41,376 nt of DNA from an uncultured Granulosicoccaceae bacterium. GTDB taxonomy: Bacteria; Pseudomonadota; Gammaproteobacteria; Granulosicoccales; Granulosicoccaceae. The DNA is taken from positions 1 to 41,376 of the forward strand of contig CALIMV010000061.1 in the NCBI GenBank assembly GCA_938045275.1. The letters are read 5' to 3'. A model generated the notes under the pieces. That model was not told the origin of the DNA, made no database searches, and worked only from the letters and a program-made list of their open reading frames with translations. Both the position numbers and the translations under genes were made by a program. Below, piece by piece: positions 5,606 through 30,606 of this stretch (position 1 is its first letter; each line of letters opens with the position of its first letter).

Positions 5606-5752
5606 ACCATCGTCGCGTCAATAACCAAAACTGGTGTCCCTATGACGCCCGGTCAAGGGTGAAATCGGGCAATTTCCTCATGCGCGATCATCAAATCTGA
5701 GCGGCGTTGGGGTATTTCAAATTCAGCTACTTATTGGATTTTTGGAGAGAAC

Positions 5753-6859
5753 GTGTCTGGCGTCAAGCTCGAAAAAATCGTGAAAGCTTATGGCCGATTA
5801 GAGGTCGTCCACGGCATTGATCTTGAGGTCAAGGAAAAAGAATTCGTCGTACTTGTAGGTCCGTCCGGATGCGGCAAATCCACCACCTTGCGAATGATTG
5901 CCGGCTTGGAGGAAATTAGCGCGGGCGATATCAGTATCGATGGACGCGTTGTTAATCGCGTAGCGCCTAAAGACCGGGATGTCGCAATGGTTTTTCAAAA
6001 CTATGCGCTCTACCCGCATTTAAGTGTTTTTGAAAATATCGCCTTTGGTTTGCGCATTCGCAAAGAGTCCAAGGGTCATATCGAAAAAACCGTCAAAGAG
6101 GCCAGCGATATTCTTGGCTTGACCCCTTACCTTGATCGTAAACCAGCTGAATTGTCTGGTGGCCAGCGGCAACGCGTCGCAATGGGCCGCGCCATTGTTC
6201 GGCGACCAAAAGTATTTCTATTTGACGAGCCGCTGTCGAATCTGGATGCAAAACTTCGAACCCAAATGAGAGCGGAAATCAAACAGCTTCACAGGCGCCT
6301 GGGAGCTACGTCAGTTTACGTGACACACGATCAAGTAGAAGCAATGACATTGGCTGATCGAATTGTGGTTATGAACGACGGGAACATAGAACAAATCGGC
6401 TCACCCATGGAATTGTTCATGAATCCTGCCAATACTTTTGTTGCGGGGTTTATTGGCTCACCCCCAATGAACCAACTGCAAGGGAATATAGAAAAAGTCT
6501 CTTCTGGTTTGCAAGTAAGGATAAACGACACTGTTATTGACTTACCCAACAACACTAACGTTGAAGACGGTCAGTCAGTAGTACTGGGAATACGTCCGGA
6601 GCACATTTCACTTAGCAACAATGAAGGCACTTCCGCCATGTCGATCTCTCTGAACCTGGTTGAAACGCTAGGCTCTGAAGCACTATTGCATGCCAAATTC
6701 GGTGAGCAAGATATGATTGTCAAAGCTGAAACCAATGGACAAATTGATCATCTATCGGAAATCTCAACCGTTTACGCTCCTACTGACCTTGTAAAAGTAT
6801 TCGATGCGAAATCCGGGCTTGTGTTGTCAGAACCCTTTTCGCAAGGTAGCAATACGTGA
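5753..6859 (+). CDS. algS: ABC transporter ATP-binding protein, MalK/UgpC type (AlgS-like)
   Basis: 368 aa, GTG start with GGAGAG upstream; [47 protein letters not shown]-terminal TOBE-like region. Confidence 0.85.
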
Positions 6860-7836
6860 GTTCGGGCCAGGATGAAAAACCTGAGTCTGGCGTAACTGAA
6901 TATGACTCAAAAAAATCATTCAAAGATAAACTGATTTGGTTAGGCGATCACTTTAGAAATGAATGGCAGCTCTACGTTATGCTGGCACCAACCATCATCT
7001 GGTTTTTGGTGTTCCTTTACAAACCTATGTACGGGCTACAGATTGCTTTTAAGGACTATTCAATATTTCGTGGCGTTGCAGCTAGCCCATGGGTTGGGTG
7101 GGAGCATTTTCATACGCTGTTTTCTAACGATCAGTTTATCCGGGCTTTTTGGAATACGATAAAAATCAGTGCACTCAATTTATTGTTTGGATTCCCAGCG
7201 CCGATTCTGCTTGCTTTGATGTTCAATGAAATTCTTCATGTAACGTATAAGCGTGTAGCCCAAACCATTGTGTATCTGCCACACTTTATTTCAACGGTCA
7301 TTATCGCCGGGATCGTCACTACCGCGTTTTCGCCTACTGCGGGAGTCGTCAATACCATCATGGGTTGGTTTGGCCTGGATTCAATTTACTTTTTAACCCG
7401 TCCTGAATGGTTTCGCCCGATATTTGTAGGTACAGGAATTTGGCAGGAAGCCGGGTTCGGCTCGATTGTTTTTCTAGCAGCCATAGCTGGCGTTAACCCA
7501 TCCCTTTATGAAAGCGCTGTGGTCGATGGCGCTAGCCGTTGGCAAATGATGTGGAAAATAACACTGCCTTGTATTCTACCCACCATCATTATCATGTTGA
7601 TCATTCGCATTGGCAATATCATGGAGGTGTCATTCGAAATGATAATTCTGCTCTACCAGCCGGCCACCTATATAACTGCTGATGTCGTTAACACGTGGGT
7701 GTACAGACAAGGCTTGGAAAGCGGACAGTACGATATTGCGGCGGCAGCCGGATTGTTCAATGCTGTTGTGGCATTTGTACTTGTTATGGTTGCCAATACA
7801 TTGTCACGGCGCTACGTGCGCACTTCACTATGGTAG
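6856..7836 (+). CDS. algM1: Sugar ABC transporter permease, LplB/AlgM1-like
   Basis: 326 aa; [22 protein letters not shown]-like loop [25 protein letters not shown]; overlaps the algS-like stop by 4 bp. Confidence 0.82.
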
Positions 7837-14896: not shown

Positions 14897-15451
14897 GTGG
14901 TATCCCCTATCATTGGTGGTGACATTTGCAAGCAACGACTTGCGAGCCGACTTATACTCGCCGATCCACGTGAGCTCACTCATGCAGAGATAAAAGGCCT
15001 GTGGCGTATCTTCGTTGCAATAGGGTCTGTCTGGGAAAACGCAACTGATGATTCTGCTGGACTGAAAAGTTCATGGCTTGAGTTCATTAAGGAAAAAACA
15101 ATACGAAGGCCAAGTTTTATAGGCGAATACGTGAACGCACTTGAAGTAGTGGACGAGCTAGAACACATCTACGGCGATGAAGCATTTTCAAAACTATTTC
15201 TAGACAATGGTATTTCGCTTGACAAGTATGGCGCACCGGCTCAGCTCGACACCCGTCTGGCGCATGCAAAATATTTTGTTATTGATGAATTTATTCGAGT
15301 GCAAATTGTCGCGGGCGGGTTTAAGAACTTTATTTCACCAAACCGTCCTGTTATCCAGCCGCAATACGTTGTTAACTATAACGGATTCATAGCCGGGTCT
15401 CGTTATAACCGTATAAAACCGGTTCGTCCGTACAAGGAAACTGATCTGTGA
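14897..15451 (+). CDS. Small protein resembling a GMC dehydrogenase accessory subunit (gluconate 2-dehydrogenase subunit 3-like); weak family call
   Basis: 184 aa; GTG start with SD GGAGG (14888-14892); immediately upstream of and overlapping the GMC oxidoreductase gene. Confidence 0.65.
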   Translation: MVSPIIGGDICKQRLASRLILADPRELTHAEIKGLWRIFVAIGSVWENATDDSAGLKSSWLEFIKEKTIRRPSFIGEYVNALEVVDELEHIYGDEAFSKLFLDNGISLDKYGAPAQLDTRLAHAKYFVIDEFIRVQIVAGGFKNFISPNRPVIQPQYVVNYNGFIAGSRYNRIKPVRPYKETDL

Positions 15452-17052
15452 ATGCGAGCACCAAAGAATACGCCTATATCATTATTGGCTCTGGTGTCGC
15501 CGGTTCGACAGTTGCCAGCAAATTGCTTGAAGCTGATCCACAAACCTCCATTCTGATGCTCGAAGCAGGTCCAAAAGTGGCGATGAAAGATCGACGCTAT
15601 TGGTGGGACTACGTGGTAAACCGAGCCAGCGGTTATAAACCCTATAATCATTGCGAAGATCGTGATGCAGACAACCCATCGGTTGGAAAAACTGACTGGC
15701 ACTCGAACGGTTCGCGCACCATGATGTACGGCGGATCAGCCGTTCACTGGGGTGGTTGGTGCATGCGCTTTAAACCAGAAGACTTTGAGTTAAAACACAA
15801 AACCGGGCGCGGAGGTGACTGGCCATATGGTTATGACACTTTAGAACCCTACTACTGCCGCGCCGACGAATACTTGTCTGTCTGCGGTGATGAGACCGTT
15901 CAGGGTCCGGATGGCCGATGGGCTGATGATCCATGGCGTAGTAAACCCTACCCGCTGCCGCCATACCCATGGACCGAATCCGATGGTGAAATGGTTGAGT
16001 CGTTTAAAAGACTCAGCATAAAACCCGGGCATATGCCGCTTGCACGTTATCGAAAATGCATGGCCACAGGTTCCTGTAAATATTGTCCATTCGGTGCACG
16101 CTTCTCAGGAGCACAAACCCTCGACGATTTGCTTAGCGAGCCAGCTTATATAAACCTGGAATTTATCGGAATGGCAGCAGCTACCCGACTAGTGGCCTTG
16201 TCCAAACGCAGTATCGGGGGGGTTGAATATATCGACCCTGATACCGGATCGCCAGTCGTCGCCATGGGGGATCGTGTCATCGTGTGTAGCGGGGCCTACG
16301 AAGCGCCCAAACTCTTGATGGGTTCAGTTAGCTCTCATTGGAAGCACGGGATTGGTAATGATAATGATCTGGTGGGCCGTTATGCGATATCCCATCCGTT
16401 CCTCTCAGTAACTGGAACAAAAAAAGAGAATAAAGAACGTTGGATTCAGGAATATGACTTTCCAAGTTTGATGTCACGCTCATACGACACCGAAAAGCAA
16501 CAAGCTAATGGAAAAATATTTCTAATGAAATATGCTGGATCACCGAACGTGGACATTGCAGATCAAATGATTCGTGGTAATAGTAGGCAGGCAATCGATA
16601 AGAAAATCAGTGGCTCGCGTACCATTCAACTATCAGCTTTCATGGAAGAAATGGGACAATACGAAAATCGATTCACGATTGGCGAGGGAACAAACCGTTT
16701 CGGTTTGCCCCGTACCCGAATCAACTTTAGTCACCCTGAAGATTTTAATTCCCGTGCAGGAGTTAATCTGGATTTGATGCAAGAAGTTATCAACGATATG
16801 GGATACGATGTCGACCCAATTAAGGGGCGAAAAATTGGAGATCAAGATGGACACCACACATCATCTACATGCCGAATGGGTAAAGACCCAACGGAAGGCG
16901 TGGTAGATGCAGATTTAAAAGTGTTCGGCACAGAAAACCTGTATGTGTGCTCGAACGCCGTGCATCCCACGTGTGCGGCTGTCAATCCAACACTCACACT
17001 GGTGGCCGTTTCGTTGAAATTGACCGATCACCTGCTATCGCAGCAACTGTGA
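15448..17052 (+). CDS. GMC family FAD-dependent oxidoreductase
   Basis: 534 aa; N-terminal IIIGSGVAGSTVASKLLEADPQTSILMLEAGP, GGSAVHWGGW, C-terminal GHHTSSTCRMG...NLYVCSNAVHPTCAAVNPTLT. GTG start overlaps the previous stop (GTGA). Confidence 0.92.
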   Translation: MNASTKEYAYIIIGSGVAGSTVASKLLEADPQTSILMLEAGPKVAMKDRRYWWDYVVNRASGYKPYNHCEDRDADNPSVGKTDWHSNGSRTMMYGGSAVHWGGWCMRFKPEDFELKHKTGRGGDWPYGYDTLEPYYCRADEYLSVCGDETVQGPDGRWADDPWRSKPYPLPPYPWTESDGEMVESFKRLSIKPGHMPLARYRKCMATGSCKYCPFGARFSGAQTLDDLLSEPAYINLEFIGMAAATRLVALSKRSIGGVEYIDPDTGSPVVAMGDRVIVCSGAYEAPKLLMGSVSSHWKHGIGNDNDLVGRYAISHPFLSVTGTKKENKERWIQEYDFPSLMSRSYDTEKQQANGKIFLMKYAGSPNVDIADQMIRGNSRQAIDKKISGSRTIQLSAFMEEMGQYENRFTIGEGTNRFGLPRTRINFSHPEDFNSRAGVNLDLMQEVINDMGYDVDPIKGRKIGDQDGHHTSSTCRMGKDPTEGVVDADLKVFGTENLYVCSNAVHPTCAAVNPTLTLVAVSLKLTDHLLSQQL

Positions 17053-18110
17053 GCGTGAATAAAAAATCACTGTTAGAACTAGTCGCTGGAAAGCATCATA
17101 TTGAGCGTATTGATAGTTTAGTCAGCCAGCCCCAAGAGTATCGCGATATTGAGTGGCTAGAGCTGGCGTTGCAATCCGCAGTATCAGTAGAGTTTTCAAC
17201 CATACCGCCCTATTTATTCGCGCTTTGGTCAATCAAAGACGAAACAGACGAAGTGGCAGAATCCATACGTAATGTTGTCCACGAAGAAATGTTGCATATG
17301 TCGCTTGCCTGTAACATGCTCACGGCCCTGGGTTGCATTCCGCAGATTAGCAACCCCAACATGGTGCCACGCTACCCAGGCCCTATTCCGGGTCATGTTC
17401 ATCCAGAACTAACGGTTGTGCTTTCGGGTTTATCCAACAAAGCCCTTGATCTCTTCATTGCAATTGAGGCCCCTTCAGATGAGGAGCCTGCGCTGTGCTC
17501 AGAATCACAGCGCGGATTTAAAAGTATAGGAGAATTTTACGACGCAATCCTTGACACATTTAAAAAACTCAATCCTAAACTTGCTACAGATAGACAAATC
17601 ACTGGACCACTGGCCTGCATGGTAATGGAAGATCTTAACTCAGTCGAATCTGCAATTAATATTATAAAAGATCAAGGAGAAGGCTCCGAGGTCTCTCCAA
17701 TCGTTGAACACACCCACGAACTTGCACATTACTATCGTTTTCTCGAAGTCCGAAAAGGTAGAAGGTTCAGCGGCGTTGACGAGAATAATCAAGCCATGTT
17801 TGATGGGCCTATATTGGCACGACCAGATTCTTGGCCTGCGGTTGTCGTACCATCAGGGGGATACCAGCAGCAAGATGTTCCAGCCGATGTATGGCAGCTA
17901 ATAAACAGTGCAGACCAGCTATTTACACAAATGCTGGACCGCCTTCAGGTCGTCTGGGAAAACGGTGATCAAGGCGCTCTAGTTCACGCCATAGACACCA
18001 TGTTTGAATTGTCCACTTGTGCACGCTCCTTGATGAGCATGGAGATTATTGGCGAACAAGGTAACTATGGCCCGTGCTTTCGCTACCTAGGGGAATCGCG
18101 AAACTTTTAA
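17049..18110 (+). CDS. Ferritin-like domain protein, VioB/RebD iminophenylpyruvate dimer synthase-like
   Basis: ~353 aa from GTG 17049; QSAVSVEFSTIPPYLFALWSI...VVHEEMLHMSLACNMLTALG...NPNMVPRYPGPIPGHVHPELTV. The start at 16947 in the ORF track overlaps the GMC gene heavily; GTG 17049 gives the same GTGA overlap as the preceding junction. Confidence 0.82.
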   Translation: MSVNKKSLLELVAGKHHIERIDSLVSQPQEYRDIEWLELALQSAVSVEFSTIPPYLFALWSIKDETDEVAESIRNVVHEEMLHMSLACNMLTALGCIPQISNPNMVPRYPGPIPGHVHPELTVVLSGLSNKALDLFIAIEAPSDEEPALCSESQRGFKSIGEFYDAILDTFKKLNPKLATDRQITGPLACMVMEDLNSVESAINIIKDQGEGSEVSPIVEHTHELAHYYRFLEVRKGRRFSGVDENNQAMFDGPILARPDSWPAVVVPSGGYQQQDVPADVWQLINSADQLFTQMLDRLQVVWENGDQGALVHAIDTMFELSTCARSLMSMEIIGEQGNYGPCFRYLGESRNF

Positions 18111-18168
18111 TTCGCTGCTTTGCCAAAGAGTCATTTTTACGAATCGAAAACACAATTGGGAAATTGAT

Positions 18169-18651
18169 ATGACCAAGAAATCCAATTCCGGTGTTTACCA
18201 ACATTGGCATGTTGTACGCTGTGTCGAACTGGGTGCGCCTGCGGCTTCTGTTTGGGATGTCATTGGAGGTTTCTACACCATCCATGAATGGCATCCAGAT
18301 ATTACAAAAACCGAAATCCGGGATAATCAGACACAAACAAATCAACTTCGTAGAGTTCTCACATTTCCAGGCCAACCCACCACTACAGAAGAACTTGTGT
18401 CGCTTGATAACAGTGATTTTCATTATAAATACAAGTGGCATGAAGGTCCGTGGGGCGAGGAGGTGAAAAACTACAAAGCCTCTATTCGATTGCTTTCCGG
18501 GGACTTGGACAAGACTTGTATATTTCAGTGGCAAAGTACGTTCGACTATCCAAGTGATGCCATCAGCGATTTTTACTGGCATGGTTTCGAAGCCTTACAA
18601 AAACGCTTTCCAATCGAAACGATTAGCCGAAGCCATCCAGCGATAAGTTGA
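18169..18651 (+). CDS. SRPBCC (START/Bet v1-like, polyketide cyclase/dehydrase) family protein
   Basis: 160 aa; VVRCVELGAPAASVWDVIGGFYTIHEWHPDITKTEI...; typical N-terminal SRPBCC pattern. Confidence 0.78.
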   Translation: MTKKSNSGVYQHWHVVRCVELGAPAASVWDVIGGFYTIHEWHPDITKTEIRDNQTQTNQLRRVLTFPGQPTTTEELVSLDNSDFHYKYKWHEGPWGEEVKNYKASIRLLSGDLDKTCIFQWQSTFDYPSDAISDFYWHGFEALQKRFPIETISRSHPAIS

Positions 18652-18682
18652 TACGACACTAAATAACTGAGAACCTACAATT

Positions 18683-19111
18683 ATGGGAAGTTTTTACGAA
18701 ATCAATGACACGTTGCTTATAAATGAATCACAGGGATTTCCATCTGATATTCTCAACATCGAATGCCATCAGAAAAACCCGGTTACGCTAAAAGATGTGG
18801 AAGATAAGGTATTCCACTTTAAAGACAAACCTACCGCTAGAGCCTTTCAACTCGACCCTATCAGAGTCTTTTTTTTTGAACGTACAAAAAATGACAAATG
18901 GCTGGCCTGGGGAAAAGTTTTCATACAGTCGCTGACTATCGAGCACAAACCACGCGAAAACTCGCACGGTGAAAGTGCGATATCCTTTATACCCGGCGAC
19001 TGGGTAACATCAGGTACTTATAAAATCGTTGAAATTTATGATCCTGAATATCAAAAAATCTACACTTCACATGAGGCGCCCAAGGCTTGGAACTATTTTG
19101 CGGACAATTAA
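18683..19111 (+). CDS. Conserved-looking hypothetical protein (MGSFYEINDTL...)
   Basis: 142 aa, co-directional, 31 bp after the SRPBCC stop; protein-like composition; family not recognised. Confidence 0.7.
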   Translation: MGSFYEINDTLLINESQGFPSDILNIECHQKNPVTLKDVEDKVFHFKDKPTARAFQLDPIRVFFFERTKNDKWLAWGKVFIQSLTIEHKPRENSHGESAISFIPGDWVTSGTYKIVEIYDPEYQKIYTSHEAPKAWNYFADN

Positions 19112-19189
19112 GTACCTGGTCAATATTCGCAATGCAATTCGAAAGCCTTAACTGTCAGGATCATTATCGATTGTCACTGGATTCAAACC

Positions 19190-19597
19190 ATGATCACGTT
19201 AATTTCAAAATGGAAGCTGCGAAACGGCATGCAACCTCAACTCGCTCAGGCCTTAAATGAAGCCGTAACTAACGTGCTGGCGCAAGAACCCGGCACACTC
19301 GTTTACTCTGTACATCTTAGTGCAACGCCTCCGCAATCAGTTGAACGAAAACAGCCGCATCCACCACCTGCTGAAATTGCTCTCGAACAACAATCTGAAT
19401 TGGTTTTTTTCGAAGTCTATGCAGACGCCGATGCCTTCGCAACACATATCAATGGACCTATTTTCACTAGGTTCCGCGATGAAAACATCCAGTATTTTTA
19501 TGAAAATCCAACCAGACCAGGTAGGCCAAACACCGACACAGTCTTTCTCGACCGTCAGGCTGCTTTTTTTCGCTGTAGTACGCACAAGGGAGATTAA
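19190..19597 (+). CDS. Antibiotic biosynthesis monooxygenase (ABM)/putative quinol monooxygenase
   Basis: 135 aa; ISKWKLRNGMQPQLAQALNEAVTNVLAQEPGTLVYSVHL...ELVFFEVYADADAFATHINGPIFTRF. Confidence 0.82.
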   Translation: MITLISKWKLRNGMQPQLAQALNEAVTNVLAQEPGTLVYSVHLSATPPQSVERKQPHPPPAEIALEQQSELVFFEVYADADAFATHINGPIFTRFRDENIQYFYENPTRPGRPNTDTVFLDRQAAFFRCSTHKGD

Positions 19598-22530: not shown

Positions 22531-23763
22531 CTACGATTGAGTTGTAACAGCAATAACTTCGATCTCTATTAGCATCTTCTTGTACACCAAATGCGGTACC
22601 GGTATGCCAGAGGTGGCTGGGCCAGGTGCATTAAACGCATCTGACCTTAAGATAAGATTTTTATGAAGCGCATCTGCAGATGCGTTACCTTGATAGAACG
22701 TTGTTACCTTTACAACATCATCCATTGTGGCACCTAAATCAATTAGTATCGTTTTGATATTCGCCAGTGCAATTTTGGTCTGCGCAATTATATTGTCGGG
22801 GTGTAAAACTTCGGCGTTAATATCCAACGCGACCTGCCCACCAAGATGAATAAAGCGACCAAACCGATTGCCGTGTTTGTAAGGCAGTTTCGATGTCCAG
22901 TTCCAATGTCCATCTGGCCAGGAGTAATGAATTTCATTTGCTTTATCCGCTATATCAACACTTAAGCACGCCGCAGTAACGGCAATTTTCGTCATTAATT
23001 CAGCTGTGGCAAAACTGCTTACTGCTATACCGGTTGCTGCAGGACCTGGCTCGGAGAAGTAGGAGGCGCGAATAGCGGCAGGCTCAGTCCAGTTCGATGC
23101 GGTACCGTCGCCCTGATAAAACACATTGATCTTTAAAACGCTGTTTAGTGTGACACCAGCCAACCCTAACGTATGCTCAAGATTACCCATCATGATTCGA
23201 GTTTGTTCGATAAGGTCGCCACCGGCTGGAAGCGTTCCATCTGATTGTATTGCCGACACATCGCCGGTGAATACTAAATCGTTGCAGCGAACAGCATGTG
23301 AAAATTGATCAGGCAATGCTGCCAAAACATCACTGCGAATGAATTGCGGGTTTGTACTTGAACGTAGCATTGGATCTACAGCGATCGCTTCCAGCTCAAT
23401 TCTCATGCCGGGATAACACAACTCTGGCACACAAATAGTTGATACTACCGGCCGTGTATCACCGCTTAATTGCGATGCAATAATATTAAGTATGAGCGTT
23501 TCATCTGAGTGATCGCCAACAAAGTAAATGACCAATTTCACCAAATCATGAAGTGATGCATCCAGATCAATTAGAATTGCATCAACATGCCTCAACACAT
23601 TGTGTGTTTGCTTAACCAGATCGTTGGGATTTACTACCCTACCTTGGCTGTTCAGGTCGGCTTGACCACCGGTAAATATCAAGCCTCCTCGCCGCACTCC
23701 GTGAAAGTGGGACAACTTGATTGGCCAGTGCCAATGATCATCGGGCCAACTGTGTGTTTTCAT
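22531..23763 (-). CDS. Triple RidA-domain fusion protein
   Basis: 410 aa; three consecutive RidA-like units, the first and third each starting with SWPD(D/G)HW(H/N)W..KL..(F/K)HG.R.G..I..GGQ. Confidence 0.88.
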   Translation of the reverse strand: MKTHSWPDDHWHWPIKLSHFHGVRRGGLIFTGGQADLNSQGRVVNPNDLVKQTHNVLRHVDAILIDLDASLHDLVKLVIYFVGDHSDETLILNIIASQLSGDTRPVVSTICVPELCYPGMRIELEAIAVDPMLRSSTNPQFIRSDVLAALPDQFSHAVRCNDLVFTGDVSAIQSDGTLPAGGDLIEQTRIMMGNLEHTLGLAGVTLNSVLKINVFYQGDGTASNWTEPAAIRASYFSEPGPAATGIAVSSFATAELMTKIAVTAACLSVDIADKANEIHYSWPDGHWNWTSKLPYKHGNRFGRFIHLGGQVALDINAEVLHPDNIIAQTKIALANIKTILIDLGATMDDVVKVTTFYQGNASADALHKNLILRSDAFNAPGPATSGIPVPHLVYKKMLIEIEVIAVTTQS

Positions 23764-23792: not shown

Positions 23793-25838
23793 TTACAGGT
23801 CTTTTGCAAGTCGTAATGCATCGTAAATAGCCGCATGTGTGTTTCGTGCACTAACTGCATCGCCTATGCGAAACAACTGAAACTGACCTGCAGGATTACG
23901 AAAACTGACCTGCGTTTCACCGTTGATTAGCGCATTGTGATCAACAGCCCCGCCATTTGAGCTTAGCGGTTTTAATACAAAATAGAGATCGTCAAGCGGC
24001 ATCGTGCCATAGTTCACAACGACCTGATCATACTCAGCTGTGTAAGTATGATCGCTGTAGTCTGTGCCGATGGTTGCCAATAGTTTATTGCCGCTACGCT
24101 CAACACCTAACAGGCGGCGCGTAACTGTAAACGTAACGTCTTTGTCTTGCAGAGAGCGCATGTAGGGTACCAGGTTCATCGCCATTATATCTGGCGCGAA
24201 TACGCGATCAGGTGTCATGATTTCAACTTTTGAACCGGCAGCAGCAGCGATCTCTGCCGCTTGTAGCGCCGGGTGATCACCACTTTCATCATAAATGAGC
24301 AATTCGTCTGCAGGTTTAACATCGCCTGTAATTATGTCCCAGCTGGATTCCACCATCATGGTGTGCTGCCCACTTTCAAACAGTTCCAGATTCGGTAAAC
24401 CTCCCGTAGCAACGATGACCACGTCGGGTGAAAGAGCGATGACATCATCCTTTTCAGCGTAGTGATTGAATTTGAAGGTAACGCCTTTAGCCGTACACTG
24501 TTCCTCACGCCATTCGATAATTGATATCATTTCGCGGCGGCGAGGCGTCATTGAGGTTATTTTTATCTGACCACCAGCCTGAGCTTGTGCTTCGAACACG
24601 GTCACCTGGTGACCTCGTTCCGCACACACCCGAGCAGCTTCAAGACCAGCAGGACCAGCGCCAACAATGACAACATTTCTTTTTGTTCTGGCCAATGGTA
24701 TGTCGTGAGGCATGGTCAGTTCACGTCCAGTTGCAGCATTATGCATGCACAAGGCTTCGCCACCCTGGTATATGCGATCAAGGCAATATGTCGCTCCAAC
24801 GCATGGGCGTATATCATGCTCACGCTTTTGCATGATTTTACGAACAATATGAGGGTCAGCTATGTGAGCTCGAGTCATTCCAACCATATCAAGCAAACCA
24901 TTTTTTATAGCATGACGCGCTGTCGCGACATCTGGAATTTTAGACGCGTGAAAGGTTGGCATGCCAGTGGCTTTTCTAACCTCACCAGCAAAATCCAAAT
25001 GGGGTGCGTTTGCCATGCCTTGTACTGGTATAAGGTCAGTCATCGCAGGGTCTGTGTGAATACGGCCACGTATTACATTCAGAAAGTCCAACTGACCACA
25101 AGCACTTAGTTTTTTTGCAATCTCAATGCCTTCGGCAGCAGTGATTCCGCCTTTTTGCGCTTCGTCTGCAGTAAACCTGAACCCAACAATGAATTCCGGA
25201 CCCACACGCTTGCGAATAGCGTCGAGCACATCCATTGGAAAGCGCATACGGTTTTCCAAAGTATCAGAACCATAGGGCCCAATCAGATCATTGGTGAGCG
25301 GTGACCAGAATTGATCTAACAGATGACCATAAACCTGTAACTCTATTCCATCCATGCCGCCTGCCTGCATACGCTGCGCAGCATCAGCAAAGTCGTTAAT
25401 TATTCGATCAATGTCCCAATCCTCTATTAACTTAGGAAAAGACCTGTGCGCAGGCTCTCGATGTTTGGATGACGAAACAGACGGCAACCATTCACCCTTG
25501 TTCCAGTTCGTTCTACGACCCAAATGAGTCAGTTGAATCATTACTGCGCAACCATGCTCATGACAGCTGTCTGTTAAATCTTGAATCCATGGAACGACAT
25601 CGTCGGAATAAACCAGCACGTTGTTAAACACTGGCGGGCTGTCTTTGGAGACAGCAGCAGAGCCCGCAGTCATTGCCAGTGCCACACCGGCTTTTGCTCT
25701 TTCCTCATGATAGGCGCGGTACCGTTCTTTAGGCATACCCTCCTCTGAATACGCCGGTTCGTGTGAGGTGGTCATGATGCGGTTTTTCAACCTTAGGTGT
25801 TTCAGGTCGTATGGTTGTAATAATGGATCTGTTGACAT
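23793..25838 (-). CDS. NADH:flavin oxidoreductase/2,4-dienoyl-CoA reductase/TMADH-like protein (N-methylproline demethylase-like)
   Basis: 681 aa; OYE barrel (LKNRIMTTSHEPAYSEEGMPKERYRAYHEERAKAGVAL), Fe-S region CVGATYCLDRIYQGGEALCMHN, then NAD(P)/FAD domain VVIVGAGPAGLEAARVCAERGHQVTVFEA. Confidence 0.9.
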   Translation of the reverse strand: MSTDPLLQPYDLKHLRLKNRIMTTSHEPAYSEEGMPKERYRAYHEERAKAGVALAMTAGSAAVSKDSPPVFNNVLVYSDDVVPWIQDLTDSCHEHGCAVMIQLTHLGRRTNWNKGEWLPSVSSSKHREPAHRSFPKLIEDWDIDRIINDFADAAQRMQAGGMDGIELQVYGHLLDQFWSPLTNDLIGPYGSDTLENRMRFPMDVLDAIRKRVGPEFIVGFRFTADEAQKGGITAAEGIEIAKKLSACGQLDFLNVIRGRIHTDPAMTDLIPVQGMANAPHLDFAGEVRKATGMPTFHASKIPDVATARHAIKNGLLDMVGMTRAHIADPHIVRKIMQKREHDIRPCVGATYCLDRIYQGGEALCMHNAATGRELTMPHDIPLARTKRNVVIVGAGPAGLEAARVCAERGHQVTVFEAQAQAGGQIKITSMTPRRREMISIIEWREEQCTAKGVTFKFNHYAEKDDVIALSPDVVIVATGGLPNLELFESGQHTMMVESSWDIITGDVKPADELLIYDESGDHPALQAAEIAAAAGSKVEIMTPDRVFAPDIMAMNLVPYMRSLQDKDVTFTVTRRLLGVERSGNKLLATIGTDYSDHTYTAEYDQVVVNYGTMPLDDLYFVLKPLSSNGGAVDHNALINGETQVSFRNPAGQFQLFRIGDAVSARNTHAAIYDALRLAKDL

Positions 25839-25983
25839 GATTTTGTTCTATTTAATGCGTGGTATGAATTATTCTTTGTGCCCTAATAAGATTTTTATAA
25901 GTCTCGTTAATCGAAACAAATATTTATATTGGCCAAACAAAATTGTAGAGGCTCAATATGTTCGCTTTTGTCTGTAATTTACT

Positions 25984-26358
25984 TCATGCTGTGTCCGATG
26001 GCAGCTTTACCACTGACCAGCAAAAGGATATCCAGCCACATACCAATAACACACCGCCTACTGGTGTGACAATACCGAGCGAGGTTAACCCAGTTAGTGC
26101 CATAATATATAAGCTTCCACTGAATGCAATGACGCCAGCGCAGAATAAACCCGCAGTACGATTTATACCGCTACCAGCGGGCAACAACCCACACGCTATA
26201 ATCGCTATAGCATGAGTACTTTGGTACCTTACACCAGTTTCTATCCAACCCAGCGGCTTTTCACCCAGCACAGATTGTAGCGAATGTGCACCAAATGCAC
26301 CTACGAGCACGGCGACACCAGCAAGAACACCGCCAGAAATCAAAATCCACTTTGTCAT
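25984..26358 (-). CDS. DUF423 family membrane protein
   Basis: 124 aa; GVLAGVAVLVGAFGAHSL...GVRYQSTHAIAI...FSGSLYIMALTG is the DUF423 pattern. Confidence 0.92.
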   Translation of the reverse strand: MTKWILISGGVLAGVAVLVGAFGAHSLQSVLGEKPLGWIETGVRYQSTHAIAIIACGLLPAGSGINRTAGLFCAGVIAFSGSLYIMALTGLTSLGIVTPVGGVLLVCGWISFCWSVVKLPSDTA

Positions 26359-26417
26359 AATTGCGCACTAGTTTTATTACTTGTTGTACTGCTTGCAGAA
26401 CCAGCTTGCTTTTTCTA

Positions 26418-28415
26418 CTACGTTCGAACAGCCGTAGGAATCATAAAAGCAGCGAAGAACGTCACCAGCTCATCAAAATTGTCCAACGGTAGAACATTTG
26501 CAATGTGTTGATCTGGTCTGACTATGACCATACAACCATGAGCAGTATCGACACCACGTAATTCGAAAACGTTGGTACCGGATTTATGATCGATGCAAAA
26601 GCATTTCTCATAGTCATGTAAACTGTATCTCCCTTTAGTGGGAAATAGTAATTTTGGGACTTCAGTAATTTCAATGTCTGTATGTTGAAACACCGCTCTT
26701 ACGTCAATCACACTATCGATATCTTGGTTACCCGGGGTATATTGACGCAATGGTGAGTCATTGGAATTATTTAGTAGTCCACATAATCTCGATACTAGCG
26801 AGCTTTTTTCACTTGGCCGTGAATCCTCTGCAAACAAGAATACACGCCAACGACCATCAGCCTGAACCAGATGCCCTAATTCAACTGGTTTAGCATCACT
26901 TAAACGAATAACAGGTGCTGAATGAAAACGGGTCCCGACTTTGAAGCCTGTGGCCAAATGCTGATACTTATTGTTTGCACAAATGATAGACCGCTTATAT
27001 TGAATCTCAGTGCCAGCTGTATATCTGCCATGTTTAATAAAATACTGTTGAAGTTCCTCAGGCGCAATTGGCGTCTTTTTTGGGGTATTCGTAACTGTTC
27101 GATTTACCGCTTGACCCTTTTGCGCATCTGATTGGCTGGCAGAGCTAACAATCTTCGACCATTGTTGGTCAAACTCAATAAGCTCCTTGGCTACCGCCTG
27201 TCGTTCGCTGGTGTAGGAATGCAAAATATCCTCTGAACATTGACCCATAATGACACTAGCTAATTTCCAACCCAAATTAAAACTGTCCTGCATTGATACG
27301 TTCATGCCTTGCCCTGCTTTTGGGCTGTGTGTATGGCATGCATCTCCAGCAATAAACACACGTGGTGTTTGACAGCCTGAATCTGTTGGCGTCATATTGT
27401 CAAAGCGATCACAAAGACGCTGACCGATTTGGTAAACAGACCACCAGGCAATTTCTTTAATATCCAGGGTAAAAGGTTGAAATATGTTTTGTGCTTTGGC
27501 GATAAGGTCTTCAGAGGTAATATTTTTTGAATTTACGCGCTCGTTAACACCCAGCTCACCAAACTCCACATATAAGCGGAACAAGTATCCACCCTCACGC
27601 GGTATAAGTACGATGGACCCAAAAGTAGATTGAATTAAACACTTGAATCGCACATCAGGAAAATCGGTTACGGCCAGAACATCCATTACGCCCCAGGCTT
27701 GGTTAACTGAATCCCCTGCAAGCTCTAATCCAATCGATTCACGAACTACGCTACGCGCGCCATCACATCCTACGAGGTATCGTGTACGAATCTGTTCTAT
27801 CGATAGTTCTGATTGACTGCTATCATTATCGCCAGCCATAGTTTCAAAGCTAGCTTTAACAGGGTAATCACACACGCTTACTTTGTTTTCAGCGTCAACC
27901 ATTACTGAATTTAATTTTCGTGAATAGTGTGGATTCAACTGTGAAGCCGATGTATGCATGACATTAAGAAAAAAATCATGCACCCTTGCCTGATTCAAAA
28001 TCACGTGAGGAAACTCTGACAATCCGTCTTCGGTATCCTGTACTTTGTCGTGTCTGGCAATGTGATTTTTATTTGCCTTATGCGGCTTCCAAAATGCGGT
28101 CTCATTTACCCAATAAGCCTCTTTCAATACACGATCGACAAATCCGAATGCATTAAACATTTCCATGTTTCTACAAGCGATTCCGTCAGCCTGGCCTAAC
28201 TGAAGCGGCCCTGCCTTCTGATCGACTATACAAACATTAATCGAATCAAATGAACTGAGCTGCGCTGCCAGCGTAAGCCCGGCCGGGCCACAACCAACGA
28301 TAAGCACATCAACCTCTTTTGGTAATGGAACAATTGGTTGACTGGAATCATCGCTCCTGGTTTGCCAATTGGTTGCCGGGTCACCGGGTACGAATCCGTT
28401 GAGATGAAATTGCAT
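26418..28415 (-). CDS. FAD-dependent aromatic hydroxylase, phenol 2-monooxygenase/3-hydroxybenzoate 4-monooxygenase-like
   Basis: 665 aa; VDVLIVGCGPAGLTLAAQLS, LVGCDGARSVVRE, VFIAGDACHTHSPKAGQGMNVSMQDSFNLGWKLA; C-terminal Trx-like region. Confidence 0.92.
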   Translation of the reverse strand: MQFHLNGFVPGDPATNWQTRSDDSSQPIVPLPKEVDVLIVGCGPAGLTLAAQLSSFDSINVCIVDQKAGPLQLGQADGIACRNMEMFNAFGFVDRVLKEAYWVNETAFWKPHKANKNHIARHDKVQDTEDGLSEFPHVILNQARVHDFFLNVMHTSASQLNPHYSRKLNSVMVDAENKVSVCDYPVKASFETMAGDNDSSQSELSIEQIRTRYLVGCDGARSVVRESIGLELAGDSVNQAWGVMDVLAVTDFPDVRFKCLIQSTFGSIVLIPREGGYLFRLYVEFGELGVNERVNSKNITSEDLIAKAQNIFQPFTLDIKEIAWWSVYQIGQRLCDRFDNMTPTDSGCQTPRVFIAGDACHTHSPKAGQGMNVSMQDSFNLGWKLASVIMGQCSEDILHSYTSERQAVAKELIEFDQQWSKIVSSASQSDAQKGQAVNRTVTNTPKKTPIAPEELQQYFIKHGRYTAGTEIQYKRSIICANNKYQHLATGFKVGTRFHSAPVIRLSDAKPVELGHLVQADGRWRVFLFAEDSRPSEKSSLVSRLCGLLNNSNDSPLRQYTPGNQDIDSVIDVRAVFQHTDIEITEVPKLLFPTKGRYSLHDYEKCFCIDHKSGTNVFELRGVDTAHGCMVIVRPDQHIANVLPLDNFDELVTFFAAFMIPTAVRT

Positions 28416-28574
28416 AGCTAAAGTACAGTGAATGTCGAATTATAAAATAATACTACCGTGCTTAGTTTTTGTAGTACATCATCAGCAGGATGAAGCGTTG
28501 CGGTTGCGTTAATGCGAACCCAATGCGCCTTATGAAACACTTGTGTCGTATTCCTCTGGCGACCGAACCCCATT

Positions 28575-29339
28575 TTATTTTGGCGCTAGCCTGACCGCAC
28601 CATCAATGCGAATATTTGTACCATTCAAATATTGATTTTCAACTATTTGCGTAACCAGTAAAGCAAATTCTTCTGGATTACCCAACCTTTGCGGGAACGG
28701 AACCTCAGCAGCAATTTTTTTTGTAACCTCTTCTGGCAAGCCCTCCATCATGGGTGTATTAAATAGACCAGGGGCTATTGCCATGACGCGGATTGCTGAC
28801 TGTGCGAATTCTCGAGCAACGGGTAGTGTCATTGACGCTATAGCGCCTTTAGATGCTGAATAAGCAGACTGACCTATTTGTCCATCCTGCCATGCAACCG
28901 ATGAAGTGTTTATGATTACTCCCCTTTCACCATTATCTAACGGATCTAAAGCCATCATGAGTTTGGCAGCATGACTCATTACATAGTAAGTACCGAGTAG
29001 GTTGACGTTGATTGTTTTCTCAAAAACATCAACCGACAATTTACTCTCTCGACCAACCACGCGCGCCGCCAACCCTATACCGGCGCAGTTGACAACAACC
29101 CGTGGCGCACTGCCAAGCAACTGCTCTGCATTGTTAACGGCGTTATTGACTGCACTTTCATTGGCGACATCTACCTCTATGCATTTACCACCAATAGATT
29201 CAGCCACTGCTTCTGCTCGTTTAACATCAAGATCGAGAACCGCAACTCGAGCCCCCCGGTTTGCCAGCAATCGAGCTGTTGCCTCACCCAGCCCACTGCC
29301 ACCACCTGTAACCAATGCCGTTGTTCCGGAAATATTCAT
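28575..29339 (-). CDS. SDR family oxidoreductase, 3-hydroxyacyl-CoA dehydrogenase type II-like
   Basis: 254 aa; ALVTGGGSGLGEATARLLA, NCAGIG, YSASKGA, C-terminal NQYLNGTNIRIDGAVRLAPK. Confidence 0.9.
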   Translation of the reverse strand: MNISGTTALVTGGGSGLGEATARLLANRGARVAVLDLDVKRAEAVAESIGGKCIEVDVANESAVNNAVNNAEQLLGSAPRVVVNCAGIGLAARVVGRESKLSVDVFEKTINVNLLGTYYVMSHAAKLMMALDPLDNGERGVIINTSSVAWQDGQIGQSAYSASKGAIASMTLPVAREFAQSAIRVMAIAPGLFNTPMMEGLPEEVTKKIAAEVPFPQRLGNPEEFALLVTQIVENQYLNGTNIRIDGAVRLAPK

Positions 29340-29556: not shown

Positions 29557-30606
29557 ATGACAGTTTCAACAGAGTTACCACCAAATACCTACTATATTGA
29601 AGTCTCTGAAGCAGGTTTACCTGAAGTAGACGGACTGTATGTACCTTCAACCGCACCCGCTGCAGAATCTGAATCCGGAACACTTTCTACTGTTGGCTAT
29701 TGGAATAGCAGATTTGCCTGGGACCGGGCTGATGGAAAGAGCGCCAGAAGCCCTGCGCTGTCTTATTCCAACAGTTATAAATCGTGGCGTATCTGCCGCC
29801 TCGATGGACACCTCGCGTACGACAATACTTGCGACGACTTGCTTCCACCTACAACAGCTAATTGGCATGTCTACAAGAAAGGTGTAGCACCTGCCCCAAA
29901 AATTGTGCTCCATCATTTCGACCCTAGAATGCCGTGTCCTCGGCCCAATGTCGTGTTTGTTATTGGCGGCCCTGGAAGTGGAAAGGGAACCATGTGCGAA
30001 CTTGCCGAAGAACAGCTGGGGTGGGCTCATTTGTCAACAGGCGAGCTGCTACGAGCAGAACTCAGTAACAACGGGCCAAAATCTGCAACTATTGAGGAAT
30101 ACATTGCCAAAGGAGAATTGGTTCCAAATGAAATCATGGTGACCTTGCTTAATGACGCTATGGATCGCCACATTAGAAGCACAGGCAATTTAAATTTCTT
30201 ATTAGATGGCTTCCCTCGATCACTGAACAATATGGAAGCCTGGTACGATATTTTTGGTAGGGATTCTGAATTACCGACTATGTTGTACTTTGAGTGCCCC
30301 TATGAAGTTCTCGAAAAACGAATTATAGGCAGAGCTAAATATTCAGGGCGTACTGACGATAATGTTGAAAGTCTAAAACTGCGATTCGATACGTACAAAT
30401 CAGAGACTTTACCTACTGTGGAGTTGTTCAGAAAGAACGATAAATGCATCGAGATTGATTCAAGCCCCGACCGTGAATCAGTCTACGCTGAAGTTGTTGA
30501 ATGTCTGTCTGATTACACCGATAAAAAACGTGTGGACCAGCCACTAACTGACAAATCTAAAATTTTGTTGGGCTTAAAGCCGTATCCCAAATCACCAAAG
30601 ACATAA
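29557..30606 (+). CDS. Eukaryotic-type UMP-CMP/adenylate kinase with unrecognised ~127-aa N-terminal module
   Basis: 349 aa; VVFVIGGPGSGKGTMCELAEEQLGWAHLSTGELLRAEL...FLLDGFPRSLNNMEAW...RAKYSGRTDDN; short LID; N-terminal YYIEVSEAGLPEVDGLYVPS...SWRICRLDGHLAY. Confidence 0.9.
   Translation: MTVSTELPPNTYYIEVSEAGLPEVDGLYVPSTAPAAESESGTLSTVGYWNSRFAWDRADGKSARSPALSYSNSYKSWRICRLDGHLAYDNTCDDLLPPTTANWHVYKKGVAPAPKIVLHHFDPRMPCPRPNVVFVIGGPGSGKGTMCELAEEQLGWAHLSTGELLRAELSNNGPKSATIEEYIAKGELVPNEIMVTLLNDAMDRHIRSTGNLNFLLDGFPRSLNNMEAWYDIFGRDSELPTMLYFECPYEVLEKRIIGRAKYSGRTDDNVESLKLRFDTYKSETLPTVELFRKNDKCIEIDSSPDRESVYAEVVECLSDYTDKKRVDQPLTDKSKILLGLKPYPKSPKT

Follow-up and report, generated by a model that had tools for sequence, protein, structure and literature searches.

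A recurrent gene pairing of a GMC flavoenzyme with a stand-alone ferritin-like protein, and its conserved trio in an uncultured Granulosicoccaceae bacterium

The flavin adenine dinucleotide (FAD)-dependent glucose dehydrogenase (FAD-GDH) of Burkholderia cepacia, a gamma-alpha-beta complex (PDB 6a2u), and fructose dehydrogenase (PDB 7w2j) are the closest described systems to a GMC flavoenzyme that is encoded, beside a ferritin-like protein of family PF12902, in a 41,376-nucleotide (nt) stretch of DNA from an uncultured Granulosicoccaceae bacterium (contig CALIMV010000061.1, positions 1 to 41,376; hereafter the window). In the canonical complexes electrons pass from FAD to a 3Fe-4S cluster and then to a multihaem cytochrome c; in the B. 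cepacia enzyme Cys212, Cys218 and Cys222 are the cluster ligands, the density of His105 is continuous to FAD, and the small gamma subunit is a hitchhiker on twin-arginine translocation (Tat) that is required for making the catalytic subunit (PMC6719666). The PF12902 domain is shared with the bisindole enzymes VioB, RebD and StaD, which are about 1000 amino acids (aa) long and have a large N-terminal part. Fungal lodA/lodB loci also combine an oxidase locus and a flavoprotein partner with a neighbouring PF12902 gene, although the partner there is a quinoprotein oxidase and not a GMC enzyme (PMC4417212).

Six open reading frames (ORFs) were confirmed within positions 14897-19597, all co-directional as originally predicted, and Pfam matches bore out the GMC, ferritin-like, SRPBCC and ABM identities given to four of them:

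g1, 14897..15451, + strand: 184-aa small protein partnering the GMC enzyme; lacks an export signal; position upstream of a type-A GMC gene (g2 and its relatives)
g2, 15448..17052, + strand: GMC flavoenzyme resembling the catalytic subunit of FAD glucose and fructose dehydrogenases; Pfam and PDB matches
g3, 17049..18110, + strand: 353-aa stand-alone ferritin-like protein (PF12902); Pfam and PDB 3hl1 matches, invariant candidate ligands
g4, 18169..18651, + strand: SRPBCC-fold protein, local cargo; matches to Polyketide_cyc2, PDB 2le1 and 3cnw (XoxI)
g5, 18683..19111, + strand: 142-aa orphan protein; no library match
g6, 19190..19597, + strand: ABM-domain protein, local cargo; Pfam ABM match

The Pfam matches were to GMC_oxred_C (1.3e-19) and GMC_oxred_N (2e-8) for g2, PF12902 Ferritin-like (4.1e-54) for g3, Polyketide_cyc2 (SRPBCC; 2e-15) for g4 and ABM (3.3e-10) for g6, and g1 had no match in Pfam, NCBIfam or PDB. 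Overlaps of 4 nt joined g1 to g2 and g2 to g3, and gaps of 58, 31 and 78 nt followed between g3 and g4, g4 and g5, and g5 and g6; since the overlaps occurred only within the first three genes, co-translation is supported for g1-g2-g3 only. A single transcript spanning all six genes is plausible and is put no higher, because neither terminator-like nor promoter-like sites in the region rose above shuffled expectation.

The conserved unit is g1-g2-g3 only. Searches by tblastn and with profiles found the three genes in the same order in two Acidobacteriota metagenome-assembled genomes (L002 and L003; identities of 52, 55 and 48%), on plasmids of Rhizobium johnstonii (L012) and Methylorubrum extorquens (L013), and in a proteobacterial genome (G422, locus L024). 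The genes overlapped or nearly touched at those loci too, and g4, g5 and g6 were present at none of them. The original prediction had treated all six genes as one pathway unit and had named a neighbourhood survey as its own refutation test; that survey recovered only the first three genes together elsewhere, and the six-gene unit was not upheld. The trio is best read as a horizontally spread, mobile oxidoreductase unit. Its small protein g1 was rare: it turned up in a single genome among the 369 of the window's class, in 3 of 399 Pseudomonadota and in 2 of 297 in the Acidobacteriota phylum set (each count includes the query's own genome). Among viral contigs, the GMC alignment search gave no relative and the ferritin alignment only four distant loci.

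The window is a contig in a draft genome of 5.75 Mb and 499 contigs. No match to g3 was found in the 26 other genomes of the same genus searched, and the rest of the family held a single weak relative (E 1.6e-4). A flanking aminotransferase gene had a 76%-identical orthologue in a congener (G032), there adjoining an adenylate-kinase gene, and the 19 kb of G032 compared contained no counterpart of the six-gene segment. The contig is thus consistent with its genus, and the operon occupies a variable region.

Pairing of GMC and PF12902 genes recurred beyond the trio. Of 399 Pseudomonadota genomes sampled evenly, 17 carried PF12902, the window's genome included, and a GMC gene lay immediately beside it in 5 of the 16 others (G422, G448, G649, G531, G757). 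The chance of at least 5 such pairings in 16 was 2e-9 to 3e-6 if a genome of 4000 genes holds 7 to 30 GMC genes, with kinship among the five uncorrected. A second GMC clade (type B), on Rhizobium, Sinorhizobium and Ruegeria plasmids, was encoded with PF12902 and another small protein; its cysteines were spaced C-x5-C-x3-C, and one of its small proteins (L052) passed the PF12318 FAD-SLDH cut-off. Type-A GMC proteins formed one group (89/87), while their ferritin partners fell into two separate PF12902 clades; a single clade was rejected (approximately unbiased (AU) test, p 6.6e-54), as was one clade holding all GMC-linked ferritins (p 2.4e-6). Since the type-A GMC proteins group together while their partners do not, the pairing arose, re-formed or changed partner more than once, and this repeated formation argues for functional coupling. 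The occurrence of the pairing in unrelated bacteria thus favours the GMC-ferritin link proposed originally. No description of the pairing was found in the open-access literature searched, most subscription papers lying outside that search; in that literature it is without a described function, and no characterised pathway matching the cluster was found in the papers searched, in line with what had been claimed.

Over its full length g2 matched FAD-GDH alpha (6a2u, 2.6e-45) and the fructose dehydrogenase large subunit (7w2j, 3.3e-35) best in PDB. Residues H100, C204, C210, C213, H470 and N513 were invariant in 8 type-A relatives. The first four aligned with H105, C212, C218 and C222 of FAD-GDH alpha, and H470 and N513 correspond by position to the GMC catalytic pair of glucose oxidase. 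The three cysteines were spaced C-x5-C-x2-C in all eight type-A proteins (for instance, CMTTGTCKYC in L025). From these alignments, g2 appears to carry the FAD-linking histidine and the catalytic His/Asn of FAD-dependent dehydrogenases, and to belong with the FAD glucose and fructose dehydrogenases, having a candidate Fe-S site and a partner protein. It is not a VioA/RebO-type oxidase, and given these features there is no need to see it as standing in for VioA, contrary to the oxidase-like place that the GMC enzyme had first been assigned.

As in FAD-GDH and fructose dehydrogenase, a small protein gene stands immediately upstream of the catalytic gene; unlike them, the trio's small protein has no Tat signal and a ferritin-like gene lies where the cytochrome c gene would stand. 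At 7 other loci (8 with the window) a homologue of g1, at 52-25% identity, immediately preceded the type-A GMC gene. An export signal was absent from the six ferritin-linked type-A small proteins, g1 included, while two ferritin-less relatives (L025 and L030) had twin-arginine-like N-termini; on account of this difference the ferritin-linked version is predicted to remain cytosolic. Placed as the gamma hitchhiker subunit is, g1 would be a folding or assembly partner of g2.

The best solved structure for g3 by sequence was PDB 3hl1 (6.6e-11, residues 41-178), a distant ferritin-like protein from Caulobacter, whose alignment spans the first candidate ligands. Six residues, E48, E80, H83, E140, E211 and H227, were invariant in alignments of 11 and 13 diverse PF12902 members and fit a ferritin-type dimetal site, so that the candidate dimetal ligands appear intact and metal binding is probable. 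The hidden Markov model check suggested for the 17049-18110 product confirmed the PF12902 domain, but not the "VioB/RebD-type" label: g3 did not match the VioB model TIGR04492 (1003 positions) even at E<=10, whereas the VioB-like split proteins L010, L011 and L051 did so weakly. The large N-terminal part of VioB/RebD (about 650 aa) was neither fused to g3 nor encoded next to it, its upstream neighbour being the GMC enzyme. In a tree of 34 sequences, in which VioB itself was not included, the window and Acidobacteriota ferritins shared a group (99/97) with cyanobacterial members, BNR-fused members and stand-alone proteins of Streptomyces. The VioB-like split proteins lay outside this group, and a joint clade with them was rejected (AU p 2e-56). 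A profile of our own ("vioN") was dropped as a classifier after it mixed BNR-fused with split VioB-like N-termini.

We tentatively favour a reading in which g3 is the electron acceptor or O2-using partner of a cytosolic FAD dehydrogenase made of g1 and g2, replacing cytochrome c. In this mechanism g2 would use FAD and the H470/N513 pair to oxidise a hydroxyl group of an alcohol or sugar, g1 would fold or assemble g2 from the hitchhiker position without an export signal, and FAD would pass electrons on to an Fe-S cluster held by C204/C210/C213. The dimetal protein g3 would most likely take the place of the membrane multihaem cytochrome c as next acceptor, and its reaction with O2 would draw on either the electrons or the product of the oxidation. 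This role for g3 is favoured because the 41-kb window contains no CxxCH ORF and the gene of a candidate dimetal protein overlaps that of g2. Ferritin-fold oxygenases usually rely on NAD(P)H reductases. The broader proposal, that a GMC flavo-iron-sulfur dehydrogenase directly feeds substrate electrons to a ferritin-fold dimetal oxygenase in a cytosolic, NAD(P)H-independent form of O2 activation assembled more than once, is possible though less likely than not; if true, a dehydrogenase-ferritin unit would tie O2 chemistry on one substrate to the oxidation of a different one, and would offer a first handle on PF12902, where most members have no assigned function.

Several observations weigh against direct transfer to g3. 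The ferritin-less L025 and L030 likewise had no adjacent cytochrome gene, so the missing cytochrome gene is not diagnostic, and in the window's genome one may lie at a distant locus; at L012 the trio is preceded by a CxxCH protein (5650-6963, directly upstream; CLSCH haem motif, signal-like N-terminus, weak cytochrome P460 match). The spacing C-x5-C-x2-C of g2 is one residue shorter than the C-x5-C-x3-C of proven 3Fe-4S enzymes. No homology was detectable between g1 and gamma, or between g1 and the type-B small proteins, and profiles of both recovered no GDH gamma chain in PDB; AlphaFold models from three-sequence alignments were too poor to be used (predicted local distance difference test, pLDDT, 39 for g3 and 44 for g1). 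Adjacency and co-evolution, moreover, fit direct electron transfer and consecutive reactions alike. A possible alternative, ranked after the acceptor role, is that g2 yields an aldehyde, ketone or lactone and that g3, an independent dimetal enzyme with its own reductant, oxygenates or couples this compound without direct electron transfer. VioB, a PF12902 protein, works in this way, taking over a reactive compound made by a flavin oxidase, GMC and ferritin genes recur with different small proteins, and the rhizobial trio lies beside IolE, TIM-barrel and thiamine diphosphate (ThDP) enzymes, resembling a metabolic sequence. Consecutive action would, however, leave unexplained both the Fe-S-like cysteine triad retained in the two GMC types and the constant choice of a ferritin-like fold as partner.

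Ferritin-fold proteins often handle iron or peroxide and the candidate ligands of g3 are intact, and g2 might thus be an H2O2-producing oxidase whose peroxide or iron g3 clears, as ferritin-like peroxidases do. This is unlikely: the top matches of g2 are dehydrogenases and not oxidases, PF12902 proteins are far longer than classical ferritins, and VioB, which the libraries name as the characterised member, is a biosynthetic enzyme. Least probable is the VioB/RebD-type secondary-metabolite pathway of oxidation, coupling and cyclisation first proposed for the six genes. Their common direction and the tailoring-type SRPBCC and ABM domains speak for it, but g4-g6 do not travel with g1-g3, g3 falls outside the VioB-like clade and the operon has no substrate-supplying gene. 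No ORF of polyketide synthase or nonribosomal peptide synthetase size was listed in the window, as had been stated; overall, the original prediction was partly supported.

Genes g4-g6 are probably additions specific to this locus, acting on what the trio produces. No match to g5 was found in Pfam, NCBIfam, PDB, plasmids or 378 other Pseudomonadota genomes, and none to g6 among plasmids or PDB. The gene that follows the trio in L002 and L003 (a DUF952 fusion) was rejected as a relative of g5, with z of 0.2 to 2.6 against shuffles.

Heparinase and short-chain dehydrogenase/reductase (SDR) genes lie upstream in the window together with ORFs that read as ABC-transporter-like from sequence only; with the sugar-type neighbours of the type-B loci (GH15, IolE, TIM barrel, ThDP), they hint at carbohydrate chemistry. 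Three rhizobial loci (L061:2620-12470, L063:2492-12350, L015:3481-13643) shared a conserved set of GH15, GMC, ferritin-like, small protein, IolE, TIM barrel, metallo-beta-lactamase (MBL) hydrolase and ThDP enzyme genes, and the sets of L061 and L063 adjoined an acyl-homoserine lactone (AHL) synthase gene. L050, L052 and L066 each carried two tandem type-B GMC paralogues that share one ferritin-like gene, possibly forming a GMC heterodimer.

Elsewhere in the PF12902 family, two rhizobial plasmids (L006:5255-7984, L008:5216-7963) encoded a fusion of about 910 aa joining YCF48/BNR repeats, a FlgD-like Ig domain and PF12902, adjoining genes for a radical S-adenosylmethionine (SAM) protein and for a flavin monooxygenase/halogenase-like protein. 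Distant PF12902-like proteins were seen on IMG/VR viral contigs (L067-L070).

Downstream of the operon, minus-strand genes at 23793-29339 encode an Old-yellow-enzyme-type reductase, a phenol-hydroxylase-type FAD enzyme and an SDR, which may together serve to degrade aromatics or enones; the set is not present between the orthologous flanks in G032. The adenylate kinase (PF00406) gene at 29557-30606 (+ strand), with about 71% DNA identity in G032, encodes an enzyme extended at its N-terminus by about 130 aa with no family match. A 410-aa chain fusing three RidA-like (L-PSP) stretches is encoded at 22531-23763 (- strand), and a single-domain RidA at 1899-2294.

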